From positions 1-64,000 of the forward strand of contig JAPOTE010000087.1 of assembly GCA_026709335.1 (NCBI GenBank): 64,000 nucleotides of DNA, in the 5' to 3' direction. The notes below the pieces were generated by a model. It made no database searches. It saw nothing but the letters and a program-made list of their open reading frames with translations, and was not told the origin of the DNA. The stretch's first letter is position 1, and each line of letters opens with the position of its first letter. Origin of the DNA: Bacteroidota bacterium. Its GTDB lineage: Bacteria > Bacteroidota > Rhodothermia > Rhodothermales > Bin80. Positions 36,462 through 42,067 of this stretch are shown here, one piece after another. Made by a program: the position numbers and the translations under genes.

Positions 36462-37451
36462 ATGCAGAATTTATTGAATTTGGGCAGCATGTTTATTATC
36501 CTGCTGATTCTTTTTGGTGCCATCCTGTTGTTGTACTTCGTTCCGATACGACTCTGGATCACCGCAATCTTCTCGGGTGTACGCCTTAAACTATTTCGCG
36601 ACTTGGTCGGGATGAGGCTACGCCGGGTACCTCCGGATCGAATTGTTAAGCCGCTTATTACTGCACACAAGGCAGGAATTCCCGCTGAAACGCCCAAACT
36701 GGAGGCACATTTCCTGGCGGGTGGGAACGTCCAGCAGGTCATCAACGCGTTGATTTCAGCAGACAAGGCGGATATTGACTTGCCTTTTGAGCGTGCAACG
36801 GCAATTGATCTTGCCGGGCGCGATGTGTTTGAAGCGGTCCAGGTTTCTGTGAACCCCAAAGTCATTGAAACTCCCCCCATTTCTGCAATTGCCAAAGACG
36901 GGATTCAACTTCGAGCCATCGCTCGTGTGACCGTGCGGGCGAATATTGAACGGCTCGTCGGGGGAGCTGGCGAGGAAACAATCATCGCTCGGGTCGGAGA
37001 AGGCATTGTTTCCACGATTGGATCATCCGATTCACATGCTGCGGTATTGGAAAATCCTGACATTATTTCGAAGACAGTATTAGCCAAAGGATTGGACTCA
37101 GGGACTGCATTTGAAATTCTCTCGATTGATATTGCCGATGTGGATGTTGGCGAGAATATCGGGGCAAAATTACAGACAGATCAGGCGGAAGCAGACTTGC
37201 AGGTTGCGCGTGCCAAAGCTGAGGAGCGCCGTGCAGCGGCAGTCGCACTTGAGCAAGAGATGATCGCTCGTGTTCAGGAGGCGCGTGCCCGTGTTGTGGA
37301 AGCCGAAGCCTTGGTTCCCGAAGCGATTGCCGAAGCTTTTCGCAATGGCCAACTGGGCGTGATGGATTACTATAATCTGCGTAATATTGAGGCAGATACG
37401 GATATGCGCACAGCTATTGGTGGAGAGACCAAGGGCGAATCTGCATCCTAA
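36462..37451 (+). CDS. floA: Flotillin-like protein FloA
   Basis: A 329-residue bacterial flotillin that organises functional membrane microdomains. One N-terminal membrane hairpin or helix ([20 protein letters not shown]) precedes the SPFH-like domain ([20 protein letters not shown] ... [20 protein letters not shown]) and a long Ala/Glu-rich coiled coil ([20 protein letters not shown]). The end [19 protein letters not shown] is diagnostic of FloA. Its stop is 5 bases from the stop of the convergent CorC gene, in the pspA operon. In other bacteria floA often neighbours envelope-stress genes, which fits. Confidence 0.95.
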
Positions 37452-37456
37452 CCGGA

Positions 37457-38710
37457 TCAGTCGGCAAGCGAGAGCCGGATCAGATCGATCCTGTTTCGCG
37501 AGGCTTTGAGGATTTCAATACGGAATCGTTCGAGAATCAGACGGTCGTTCACCGAAGGGATAGAGCCGCTCTGATCCAGGATGTATCCTGCAATGGTCTC
37601 GAATTCCCCTTCAGGAATGGACAGGTCAAAGCGCTCGTTGATCTCATCAATTTCTGCTTTTCCGCTAAACAGGTATATGCGGGGAGCAATTTCGCTCATG
37701 ACTACATCCTCTGTATCAAATTCATCCTGAATATCTCCGAAGAGTTCTTCCAGAAGATCCTCCCGTGTAATGAGTCCGGCGGTTCCGCCATATTCATCGA
37801 TGACGATGACGATGGATCGGTGGCTGTCTCTGAATTCCCGTAGCAGCTCTTTGGCAGGTTTCGATTCCGGCACAAATCGAGCAGGCCTCATGACATCTTC
37901 CAGTGTGGCCGGGCTTTCGAACAAGTTATATGCGAAGGCAATTCCTACAATGGTATCAATATTTTCTCGGTAAACAGGAATTTTCGAGTAACCGCTTTCG
38001 ATGCAGAGATGACGGAAATCTTCGAGAGAAGTATCTTCGGAGATGGCTACAATCTCGGTTCGAGGAGTCAGGCATTCCCTGGTCCGCTTCGCATGAAGCC
38101 CAAAAACGTTTGTAAGTAACTCTGTTTCCTCAGCGTCCAGATCAAGAGATCCGCGCTCTACATTCTCTTCAATGATCTGCTCAAGTGCACGGCGAGAAAA
38201 GCGGGTAAATTCATCAGGTGTGCTCCCAATCCGTTTCACTAGTAACTGCGATGTCCAACTGACCAAGAGGATCAAAGGGAGTAGCACTACATAGGTTATT
38301 GCAAGAGGAGCTGCAAGTACAAAAACGGCACGGGTTGCGGTCTCTCGCATGAGGGTTTTGGGGAGGATTTCTCCAATCAGGAGAACAATAATCGCGGCGA
38401 TAATCGTCTGAACAATGACTTGAGGGCTTTCGCCGGAAATAAAACGGGATAGAGGTTCGGACAGAGCAATTGCCATGACAGTAGAGAAGATTACCAAGGC
38501 AATATTATTTCCGACCAGAGTGGTTGTCAAAAGTCTGGCCGGCGATGCAAAGAAGAAGGTAACCAAGCGTCCCAGAAGACCAATACGGCGTGCCCGCATT
38601 TCAACACGCAGACGATTTGCGGCAACGAATGCGATTTCTGCGCCAGAAAAAAACGCACTCAGAAGGAGGGTAGTAACTATTACAGTGAGGGCCATGCACG
38701 AAGCAGGCAA
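37457..38710 (-). CDS. CNNM/CorC-family (hemolysin-like) membrane protein with CBS domains
   Basis: A 417-residue protein with an N-terminal CNNM (DUF21) transmembrane domain (LLLSAFFSGAEIAFVAANRLRVEMR is the family opening), a CBS pair (about 205-325, MTPRTEIV-like LTPRTEIVAISEDTSLEDF and IVIVIDEYGGTAGLITREDLLEELFGDI), and a C-terminal CorC_HlyC domain (IPEGEFETIAGYIL). The family is linked to Mg2+/Co2+ export or tolerance and to membrane integrity. It directly abuts the upstream coiled-coil membrane gene and is the last gene of a four-gene operon starting with pspA. Confidence 0.92.
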   Translation of the reverse strand: MPASCMALTVIVTTLLLSAFFSGAEIAFVAANRLRVEMRARRIGLLGRLVTFFFASPARLLTTTLVGNNIALVIFSTVMAIALSEPLSRFISGESPQVIVQTIIAAIIVLLIGEILPKTLMRETATRAVFVLAAPLAITYVVLLPLILLVSWTSQLLVKRIGSTPDEFTRFSRRALEQIIEENVERGSLDLDAEETELLTNVFGLHAKRTRECLTPRTEIVAISEDTSLEDFRHLCIESGYSKIPVYRENIDTIVGIAFAYNLFESPATLEDVMRPARFVPESKPAKELLREFRDSHRSIVIVIDEYGGTAGLITREDLLEELFGDIQDEFDTEDVVMSEIAPRIYLFSGKAEIDEINERFDLSIPEGEFETIAGYILDQSGSIPSVNDRLILERFRIEILKASRNRIDLIRLSLAD

Positions 38711-39556
38711 TCAGGAACGTGACCGGGAGCGTAGCAGAGGAGAATTCCAGTCGTCCTCACTTTCCTCTACCCCAAATACTGACTCAATCTGAGAAACAGA
38801 AGCCTCTGTCTCCTCCACTTCGGAGAGCAGAACATCAAGTTGGTAGGTGATTTCTTCTGGATTATTTAAGGTCAGTGACTGTTCATGGATATATTTGACA
38901 ACGTCTTCAATCGTGGCTACCTGTGCTTCAATCATTTCCAGCTGCTCCTTACTTTGCTTGAAGCGCTGTAAACGTTGCTCCAGTACTTTTAATCTCCTGA
39001 CCTTGATTTTACGGATCGGCTCAGAAGCATGCTTTAACTCCGTCTCAACGGCCGCGATCGCCGTGATAAGTTCTTGCTCATGTTTTCGCTGTCCAAACGC
39101 AGTATACCGTTCCTGCTGAAACATGAGTTTCAGGCAGGAATTCATAAGATCTTCAATCTTCGTTGTGTGGCTTTCAAGAATCCCCTGTGAGGCATAGCTG
39201 AATTTACGATAGTTGGCCTGAACATCCTTCTCCAGATCTCTGAGTCGAACATAACGGCGTTGGTTCACACGGTTGAGTTGCCGATACATTTCGCGCTGTG
39301 AGGGTGGTTTTGCCGCAACGGCGGCATGCTTTGCACGGATAATATTCCGAAATCGCCGTTGACGAGGTAGATACCCCAGAATCAATAACTCAAAAGCAAC
39401 AGTGAGGGTTAAGAGGGATTGAAATAGTGTATTTCCCAACTCCCCAAGTCCGACAAATCCTAACCCAAGAGCAACTCCGATCCCGACTGTAAGAAATGAA
39501 AGGTTCCAAGGATGCAGAAATGCTTCACGGGTGTAATTAATATCACCGTCTTTCAT
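38711..39556 (-). CDS. Membrane-anchored coiled-coil protein of the pspA operon
   Basis: A 281-residue protein I cannot assign to a named family. Two hydrophobic helices near the N-terminus (FLTVGIGVALGLGFVGLG and LFQSLLTLTVAFELLILGYLP) are followed by a long charged coiled coil (about 75-260) rich in Glu, Lys, Arg and Gln. The architecture suits a membrane partner for PspA or a scaffold. Its start overlaps the preceding 117-residue gene by four bases and its stop abuts the CorC gene, so it is part of one polycistronic unit. Function is inferred from context only. Confidence 0.72.
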   Translation of the reverse strand: MKDGDINYTREAFLHPWNLSFLTVGIGVALGLGFVGLGELGNTLFQSLLTLTVAFELLILGYLPRQRRFRNIIRAKHAAVAAKPPSQREMYRQLNRVNQRRYVRLRDLEKDVQANYRKFSYASQGILESHTTKIEDLMNSCLKLMFQQERYTAFGQRKHEQELITAIAAVETELKHASEPIRKIKVRRLKVLEQRLQRFKQSKEQLEMIEAQVATIEDVVKYIHEQSLTLNNPEEITYQLDVLLSEVEETEASVSQIESVFGVEESEDDWNSPLLRSRSRS

Positions 39557-39906
39557 AGATCTTTCTCCGAGGCATCGGACTTAAGTTGGCGACCAATGGT
39601 TTTTGCGGGAGGGGATGCCGTTGCTTGGGTTGAATTTTCAACAGGAGCGGCACATTTCTCTGTGGGGGCCTTCTGCTCCAACGCAATGTCCATGCGGGCC
39701 TCATTTAGTGCGGTTTCAGTATTGAGGCGCGCAGTGAATTCATCCAAAGGATTGGCAGCATCCTCCAAGGCGTCAACCATGCTACCCAGCGCGCGATTGA
39801 CTGCTTGTCTTTTGCTGGCAGCCTTAAGTGTGTGCTGGATTTGTTTGCGCTCCCGGAACTCTTTGATGTATTTTTCTTTTAGGCGTGCGCGTTCCTTTTC
39901 AGGCAT
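39553..39906 (-). CDS. Small PspA-tail-like satellite protein
   Basis: A 117-residue hydrophilic protein with a basic N-terminal helix (KERARLKEKYIKEFRERKQI). From about residue 40 it resembles the C-terminal part of the PspA-like protein encoded just upstream: MVDALEDAANPLDEFTARL and ETALNEARMDIALE line up with NVADALEKF ... DEMIQRL and ETARNEARIEVALD, and both proteins end in a KT(M/I)GR motif plus a short charged tail. It begins 2 bases after the pspA stop and overlaps the next gene. Likely a partner of, or duplicate derived from, the PspA tail; no known family recognised. Confidence 0.68.
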   Translation of the reverse strand: MPEKERARLKEKYIKEFRERKQIQHTLKAASKRQAVNRALGSMVDALEDAANPLDEFTARLNTETALNEARMDIALEQKAPTEKCAAPVENSTQATASPPAKTIGRQLKSDASEKDL

Positions 39907-39908
39907 CT

Positions 39909-40667
39909 TTACTGTTCCTTCTTACGTGCGCGCCCCATGGTCTTATCTTCGGTTTCTGTCTCCTCTGAAGAGATACGGGAAGATTCCTCGTTTGATTCAG
40001 TAAGCCCCATTTCAAGTTTCATCTGATTGACCAGTTCTGATGCACGCATATCTTCGGCTTCTTCATCCAGTCGGATTGACTGAACATCCACGGAATCGAG
40101 TGCTACCTCAATCCGTGCTTCATTTCGAGCGGTTTCTTCATCGAGGCGTTGGATCATCTCATCATGCGTTTGATCAATTCCGCCGACCTCAAATTTTTCA
40201 AGTGCGTCTGCTACATTTGACTGCCATTTTGCACGTTCACTTGCGCGCAGTGCTTCCTGAGCGGCGTCAATTTTTCTTTGTCGTTCACGCATAAACGCTT
40301 TCTTGACCTGCTGTGCTTTATCATAAGCAGCAGTAGCGTGTGCAAGCTGTTCATTAGTTTTTTCGAGATTTTCCTGGGCGGTCTCAAATCGAACAGCGTG
40401 TTGTCGTGCAATATCGTCACGCCCGTTCTGAATGGCTGACTTGATTTTTGACCGCAAGGTCTGTACCTCAGACTGCAGGCGCTTTGATTCTTTCTGGAGA
40501 AGGATCACATTGGCTTTTACGGTTGCGATGTTTTCATTCATTTTGGGAACTTGATCATTCAGTTCCCGAATATTCTGTTCAAGAATCAGCCTGGGGTTTT
40601 CCAAGGACGAAATAGCGCCCCCAAAAATTGAACGAATTGCGCGTTTAAATCGTGTCCAGAGAGACAT
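39909..40667 (-). CDS. pspA: PspA/IM30 family protein
   Basis: A 252-residue peripheral membrane coiled-coil protein of the PspA/IM30/Vipp1 (bacterial ESCRT-III-like) family, which maintains inner-membrane integrity. The amphipathic N-terminal helix MSLWTRFKRAIRSIFGGAIS and LENPRLILEQNIRELNDQVPKMNENIA are recognisable, followed by long helices. The last 60 residues are acidic and end in DKTMGRARKKEQ. It is first in the operon pspA-satellite-coiled coil-corC. The usual regulators pspF, pspB and pspC are not present. It is less similar to Proteobacterial PspA than to the general PspA/IM30 fold. Confidence 0.85.
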   Translation of the reverse strand: MSLWTRFKRAIRSIFGGAISSLENPRLILEQNIRELNDQVPKMNENIATVKANVILLQKESKRLQSEVQTLRSKIKSAIQNGRDDIARQHAVRFETAQENLEKTNEQLAHATAAYDKAQQVKKAFMRERQRKIDAAQEALRASERAKWQSNVADALEKFEVGGIDQTHDEMIQRLDEETARNEARIEVALDSVDVQSIRLDEEAEDMRASELVNQMKLEMGLTESNEESSRISSEETETEDKTMGRARKKEQ

Positions 40668-40732: not shown

Positions 40733-42067
40733 TTAAGAATTGGATTCCCATCCTTCCACAGTGAGTCGTTCTAATAAAATTTGCGGTTTTTTGGATTTTT
40801 TAGAAGAGAACTTGTATGCATTGATGACGCGATTCTCGAACACTTCAATTTGGTCAGTTTTTCGAGTAAACAGGCTAACCAAGGGGAGGCCGGGAATGGC
40901 TCTTTCGCCTGGACGTAAGTGAAGAACAATTCCCGCTTCATCATCAATTTTGTCTTCTATAACGATACGGCCGCCCCCCATGGAATTCGTAATTTCACCA
41001 ATTGCGAGCGCGTCTATCTCGGTGACGTAGCCACTGACATCAAGGGGAACCGTTACGGTGTAAGGTTCTATTGAACGCATGCGAAGTGAAGGATCATGGA
41101 TCATCGCGGGATTTCCTCCCTGAGTTTCAACGATTTTGGCCAGGCGATCGAGTCCACGGCCGGAGTTAATCGCATTTTGAGCCATTTCTTGGCCTTCCTC
41201 CGGTGAATCAGCCAAGCCTCCAAGAGCAATCATCTCACCGCTTAATTTGAGCGATAGATCCATTATATCATTGGGACCTTCGCCACGGAGGCATTCAATG
41301 GCTTCTTCAACTTCAAGCCAGTTTCCGATTGCCCGTCCCAAAGGTGCATTCATATCGGTAAGCCATGCAATCGTAGGCATATCAAAGTGTTCGCCAACTT
41401 CTACGAGGGCTTCAGCAAGTTGGCGAGCATTTTCCCGGGTTTTCATAAAAGCACCACAGCCGGATTTCACATCAAGCACAAGGCCGTCCAGTCCCTCAGC
41501 CAGTTTTTTGCTCAGGATGGAAGCAGTGATGAAAGGGATAAAATCAACGTTTGCTGTAACATCCCTCAGAGAATATATCTGTTGATCTGCCGGTGCAATC
41601 TCTTTTGATGCTCCAATCATCGCAACTCCAAAGTCGCAAATTTGCCGGGTCACATCGGCGATGTTCAGGTTCGTGCGGACACCCGGAATAGATTCCAGTT
41701 TATCAAGCGTACCTCCTGTGTGTCCCAGGCTACGTCCGGAAACCATGGGAACACAGACCCCACACGAAGCAACAAGAGGAGCGAGAATCAATGAAACCTT
41801 ATCCCCGACACCGCCCGTCGAATGTTTGTCTACAATAGGTCCAGGTGCTCCGGGGAAACGCAGAATGCTTCCCGAATTGAGCATATAACGGGTCAGACTG
41901 ATCGTCTCGTTCAGATTCATTCCGCGTAACTGTGCAGCCATTAGAAACGCGGACATCTGATAATCGGGTATACGTTGCACCGTATAACCTTCGATTAGGT
42001 ACTGGATTTCACTGCGTGACAATTCCCCTCCATCACGCTTTTTTTTAATTATGTGGATTGCATCCAT
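40733..42067 (-). CDS. deoA: Thymidine/pyrimidine-nucleoside phosphorylase
   Basis: A 444-residue salvage enzyme that splits thymidine or uridine with phosphate. MDAIHIIKKKRDGGELSRSEI is the typical opening, followed by the phosphate-binding KHSTGGVGDKVSLILAPLVA, MVSGRSLGHTGGTLDKLESIPG, and LDVKSGCGAFMKT. The C-terminal alpha/beta domain contains GGGRIVIEDKIDDEAGIVL and LRPGERAIPGLPLVSLFTR. The deoA and pdp subgroups are hard to separate; the length fits either. It may be expressed with the upstream L31 gene, 94 bases away. Confidence 0.9.
   Translation of the reverse strand: MDAIHIIKKKRDGGELSRSEIQYLIEGYTVQRIPDYQMSAFLMAAQLRGMNLNETISLTRYMLNSGSILRFPGAPGPIVDKHSTGGVGDKVSLILAPLVASCGVCVPMVSGRSLGHTGGTLDKLESIPGVRTNLNIADVTRQICDFGVAMIGASKEIAPADQQIYSLRDVTANVDFIPFITASILSKKLAEGLDGLVLDVKSGCGAFMKTRENARQLAEALVEVGEHFDMPTIAWLTDMNAPLGRAIGNWLEVEEAIECLRGEGPNDIMDLSLKLSGEMIALGGLADSPEEGQEMAQNAINSGRGLDRLAKIVETQGGNPAMIHDPSLRMRSIEPYTVTVPLDVSGYVTEIDALAIGEITNSMGGGRIVIEDKIDDEAGIVLHLRPGERAIPGLPLVSLFTRKTDQIEVFENRVINAYKFSSKKSKKPQILLERLTVEGWESNS

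Follow-up and report, generated by a model that had tools for sequence, protein, structure and literature searches.

Our data identify the small gene directly downstream of pspA in the window (the whole stretch of Bacteroidota DNA analysed here, 64,000 nucleotides long) as a partial paralogue of pspA that corresponds to the C-terminal half of the protein. PspA itself is related to the ESCRT-III proteins that repair membranes. The family formed by this satellite and its relatives appears, from profile comparison and tree, to go back to a single tandem duplication of part of pspA, and its members probably serve as accessory subunits of the PspA coat. The two ORFs that the preliminary description of this DNA had singled out are both present (Table 1); the satellite ORF starts 2 bp after pspA ends, and its stop codon lies in a 4-bp overlap with the start of a third gene. 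Overlapping genes are frequent in the gene string that contains the satellite at other loci, too.

Table 1. Features of the pspA neighbourhood in the window
Feature	Position	Strand	Description
pspA, 252 aa	39909..40667	-	ESCRT-III-like PspA/IM30 protein with extra KTMGR tail; PF04012 E 2.4e-19
Satellite gene, 117 aa	39553..39906	-	partial paralogue of PspA C-terminal half; no Pfam family; hhalign E 7e-22
Satellite-specific N-terminal helix, residues 1-24	39835..39906	-	K10 invariant, E5 and K14 nearly invariant; without PspA match
Satellite alpha4-like segment, residues 55-77, DEFTARLNTETALNEARMDIALE	39676..39744	-	BLASTP, profile alignment, column counts
PspA alpha4 counterpart segment, residues 169-191	40095..40163	-	BLASTP, profile alignment
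PspA alpha5, residues about 195-221	40005..40085	-	counterpart in most satellites, lost in the window's genus
KTIGR motif, satellite tail	39589..39603	-
KTMGR motif, PspA tail	39930..39944	-
Third gene, 281 aa	38711..39556	-	two N-terminal hydrophobic segments and coiled coil; not PspA-homologous
Thymidine phosphorylase gene	40733-42067	-
CNNM/CorC protein gene	37457-38710	-

Outside this gene string, the window encodes FloA (flotillin-like; PF12127, E 8.7e-158) at 36462-37451 (+), in convergent orientation with the CNNM gene, downstream of the pspA genes; FloA lies near pspA in 29/80 loci. An enoyl-CoA hydratase gene adjoins the third gene in several lineages (L050:8219-9112, L098:8118-8900, L057 and L104) and also in two divergent genomes (L186, L187), but not in the window. 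Several contigs of the window's own assembly (C12, C15, C29, C42, C66, C85 and C122 of G000) share the start AAAACCATCGGAAG (bases 5-18), which is apparently a repeat at which the assembly was interrupted.

The satellite as a partial PspA

The motif pairs quoted in the preliminary description can be found in the two proteins (ETALNEARMDIAL and ETARNEARIEVAL, MVDALED and VADALEKF, KTIGR and KTMGR). As a pair, satellite and PspA align by BLASTP over 23 residues (E 7e-6, 57% identity) and their Smith-Waterman score of 74 (shuffled mean 40) was reached in 0.02-0.06% of shuffles, which points to a similarity beyond chance over a short aligned length. An alignment of 50 residues or more, named in the preliminary description as what would support a duplication, is therefore not given by the two sequences alone but is provided by their families: when 62 satellites were compared with 60 PspA proteins, satellite columns 25-168 matched PspA 133-257 over 122 columns (probability 99.4, E 7e-22). 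The alpha3-alpha4 part of the satellite profile and its alpha5 plus tail part each match PspA on their own (E 1.7e-12 and 6.6e-11, respectively) and the alignment runs collinearly through alpha3, alpha4, alpha5 and tail. Because the profile covers these elements, while the first 35 satellite alignment columns have no PspA match, we regard the satellite as a partial PspA.

Could two coiled coils simply look alike by chance, without homology? The short two-sequence alignment would fit such a view, as would one of five block-shuffled control profiles, which reached E 3e-4 (the other four gave 0.11-0.28). Against this stand the E value of 7e-22, collinearity and the common tail motif, along with controls from a reversed profile (E 0.33) and fully shuffled ones (0.26-0.53), all at 0.26 or above; an unrelated coiled-coil family, that of the third gene, gave E 0.03. 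Taken together, profile comparison and controls make chance resemblance so improbable that we dismissed it, and the partial duplication put forward in the preliminary description is strongly supported by them and by the single clade that the satellites form (see below).

In comparison with PspA/IM30/Vipp1 proteins (PF04012, bacterial ESCRT-III), the satellite has the same collinear alpha3-alpha4-alpha5 order and KT[IM]GR tail as the neighbouring PspA, thus homology over at least one structural half. It differs from them in having neither alpha0, the amphipathic helix, nor the alpha1/alpha2 hairpin (it aligns solely to PspA 133-257, and its AF2 model is without a hairpin), in an N-terminal helix of its own and in evolving fast. 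It also lacks a Pfam match: PF04012 and Snf7 were not found for the window satellite, nor among the 25 families, out of those matched at E 0.1, that the 62 satellites hit most often (27 further families had a single member each), and a DUF896 match of the satellite N-terminus (E 0.03) was dropped as it fell below the curated cut-off.

AF2 predicts one helix for the window satellite (residues 3-79) followed by a disordered tail, with a mean pLDDT of 83.5. Across satellite models, an alpha3/alpha4-like helix is joined by an alpha5-like helix where the latter is present, and the tail is disordered. For the locus L040, PspA and satellite were also modelled as one read-through chain with the stop read as glycine, purely a modelling device. 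Here, PspA forms helices at 2-23, 25-80, 84-192 and 195-219 and the satellite at 260-341 and 352-376, with disordered tails (pTM 0.40); this model supports the predicted assignment of elements rather than any interface. In Foldseek searches the L040 chain matched Vipp1 (6zvr, probability 1.00), and the single-helix satellite model had no match; the PspA profile, too, matches Vipp1 chains. Among the 62 aligned satellites, alpha5C (RAxxLVxQxKxEMG, whose A is 98% conserved) is present in 50. The remaining 12, including the window's own protein and genus, are without alpha5 and retain alpha4, N-terminal helix and KTIG. Conservation of E, A, R and A in satellite alpha4 amounts to 87-95%.

Linkage, spread and evolution

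A scan with PspA yielded 80 loci, found in Rhodothermales, Balneolaceae and a small number of other Bacteroidota, and in 74 of these the satellite lies directly downstream of pspA (73 found by HMM plus L071, which is cut by a contig end). Both genes share one strand in 60/60 loci tested from genome searches, some of which overlap with the first 80. Of 394 genomes drawn from across the phylum, 98 are members of the class Rhodothermia; the satellite profile has matches in about 97/98 class genomes and at least two in about 90/98, two being what satellite plus PspA C-terminus produce since the profile also detects the latter, while seven are matched just once. Outside the class, the draw gave two weak matches only, a SecA-like coiled coil in G094 and a weak PspA-like frame in G339, neither of which was counted as a satellite elsewhere in Bacteroidota. 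The repeated co-occurrence beside pspA that the preliminary description had looked to in other genomes is hence strongly borne out. Neighbouring housekeeping genes are likewise syntenic, however, so that linkage by itself argues only weakly for a function. In G419, a divergent genome, the satellite (L189:1435-1929) is unlinked from pspA.

The satellites form one clade (support 0.997), and many of them, at 150-190 aa, match more of PspA than the window copy does. Their mean pairwise distance is 2.96, against 0.34 for the corresponding PspA region, and close pairs have dN/dS values of 0.05-0.25 (satellites) and 0.00-0.08 (PspA). On account of these distances and ratios, we consider the satellite a real and constrained gene that evolves faster than its parent. 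It is dispensable in two families, as these keep PspA (with KTIG, where read) and the third gene without it. In one further genome (G340), satellite, third gene and the KTIG of PspA are all absent together.

Possible roles at the PspA coat

With modest confidence, we take the satellite to be a hairpin-less accessory subunit of the PspA coat that would bind PspA and show its N-terminal helix and KTIG toward a membrane partner. Keeping alpha3-alpha4 and the tail motif (plus alpha5 in most relatives) without alpha0 and the alpha1/alpha2 hairpin, it would bind PspA subunits through contacts retained by its alpha4/alpha5 copy and become a non-extending member of the coat. Once bound, it would display its own basic N-terminal helix and, in its tail, a second KTIG peptide. 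These parts would probably connect the coat with the third gene's product, the two-TM coiled-coil protein, or act with that protein to regulate the coat.

The preliminary description saw in the satellite a candidate that might compete with PspA assembly, cap it or regulate it. Such a role is plausible, and Vipp1 suggests how a cap might operate. Here, alpha5C of subunit j passes over the hairpin tip of j+3 and binds there (Interface 1), and polymers no longer form once alpha5 and alpha6 are removed (PMC8281802); alpha5N makes Interface 3 (PMC8281802, PMC11919738). Based on the contacts between alpha5C and hairpin tip, a hairpin-less alpha4-alpha5 protein could dock on PspA without passing growth on. 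Satellite alpha4/alpha5 may accordingly sit on the hairpin tip of those PspA subunits that end a polymer and, for want of a hairpin, halt growth or limit polymer size, and most satellites do keep alpha5C, the very part making Interface 1 in Vipp1 (PMC8281802). Yet the 12/62 satellites without alpha5, from the window's genus and other lineages, go on conserving alpha4, N-terminal helix and KTIG. A pure alpha5 competitor or cap therefore cannot be the general mechanism and seems rather unlikely to us, and the same pattern leads us to favour the accessory subunit over it.

Alternatively, the satellite may stay outside the polymer and act as a negative regulator or assembly chaperone, holding PspA as small off-membrane oligomers that are freed on stress. 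A helical protein without alpha0, encoded in the same gene string as pspA and often by overlapping genes, would suit such a task. But the satellite tail matches PspA's own tail, which suggests a common partner more than inhibition, and we judge this scenario unlikely.

The tail itself is the best-kept element common to satellite and PspA. At least one [KR][TS]xG tail motif occurs in 73/73 linked satellites; the PVLGDF tail of the G419 satellite is an exception to the KTIG rule. In 11 satellite-bearing loci PspA is without KTIG, and in 10/11 of these the satellite has two copies, as if the KTIG total per locus were being kept despite loss from PspA. Such double-copy satellites next to a PspA without KTIG are seen in L080, L082, L087-L090, L106 and others. 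As a widespread C-terminal signal, KTIG was ruled out: among 30/40 own-genome pattern matches, no KT[ILVM]G[RK] tail like that of PspA or satellite was found elsewhere (three matches were transposase-like), and a KTIG-type motif falls within the last 60 residues of 2/2038 other ORFs near pspA. One might then ask whether the satellite is a tail decoy or independent adaptor that binds a KTIG reader or the third protein only, and never PspA. That PspA can lose KTIG when the satellite has two, and that KTIG and third gene were lost together in one genome (G340), would be in line with this idea. A mere tail carrier would, however, have no need of alpha4, which is conserved, or of alpha5, which mostly is, and so we find this option quite improbable.

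The presumed membrane partner of the accessory subunit, the third protein, has N-terminal hydrophobic segments at about 17-41 and 42-63, and its gene is present in 75/80 loci. That it might be a further PspA/Snf7 paralogue was discarded for lack of profile homology (probability 1.7), and an RTR-like end, seen in 9/37, was dropped. Three divergent Bacteroidota genomes (G417, G418, G419) have both the satellite and an unlinked third gene; one divergent genome has the third gene and is without canonical KTIG. In G116 the third gene may be split or frameshifted, as it is matched twice (G116:C1:2082567-2083357) and each frame contains a stop. Tentatively, we can envisage a three-part module of PspA, its C-terminal-half paralogue and the two-TM coiled-coil protein, in which a hairpin-less ESCRT-III fragment would control or anchor the coat in trans, KTIG would be read by the membrane protein and regulation would be independent of an ATPase.

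Earlier descriptions and significance

The locus has already been partly noticed, under an accession (CBH24266.1) that by its look we take to be one of Salinibacter ruber. A 2024 survey speaks of a Bacteroidetes neighbourhood (CBH24266.1) in which PspA and Snf7 are found together, accompanied by a third, coiled-coil gene that recalls PspA (PMC11237479). Being likewise a PspA locus in Bacteroidetes with two more coiled-coil genes, one of them called Snf7, this neighbourhood is, as far as that statement goes, probably the same as ours. It is given one sentence there, and the main text of the survey does not speak of a C-terminal-half duplication, a KTIG tail, class-wide conservation or co-loss. 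Another paper (PMC9239133) makes no mention of Rhodotherm- or Balneol-. The view in the preliminary description that no account of such a satellite was known thus has to be given up for the locus, and holds for the duplication, which is absent from the survey's main text and of which we found no description.

Paralogues of one polymer former are used together in ESCRT-III (Vps24 with Snf7, CHMP2A with CHMP3) and in the VIPP1/VIPP2 pair. These keep the hairpin and the satellite does not, so the comparison concerns a similar way of working only. Bacterial PspA has no obvious Vps4-type ATPase, and what limits, anchors and dismantles its polymers is described as open in the survey text cited above (PMC11237479) and elsewhere (PMC13051332). 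A conserved, natural, hairpin-less piece of PspA, encoded beside pspA in nearly a whole class that includes cultured strains, offers a direct handle on this polymer, and the satellite would illustrate clearly how a subfragment of a polymer-forming protein can be retained as a partner of the polymer from which it derives.
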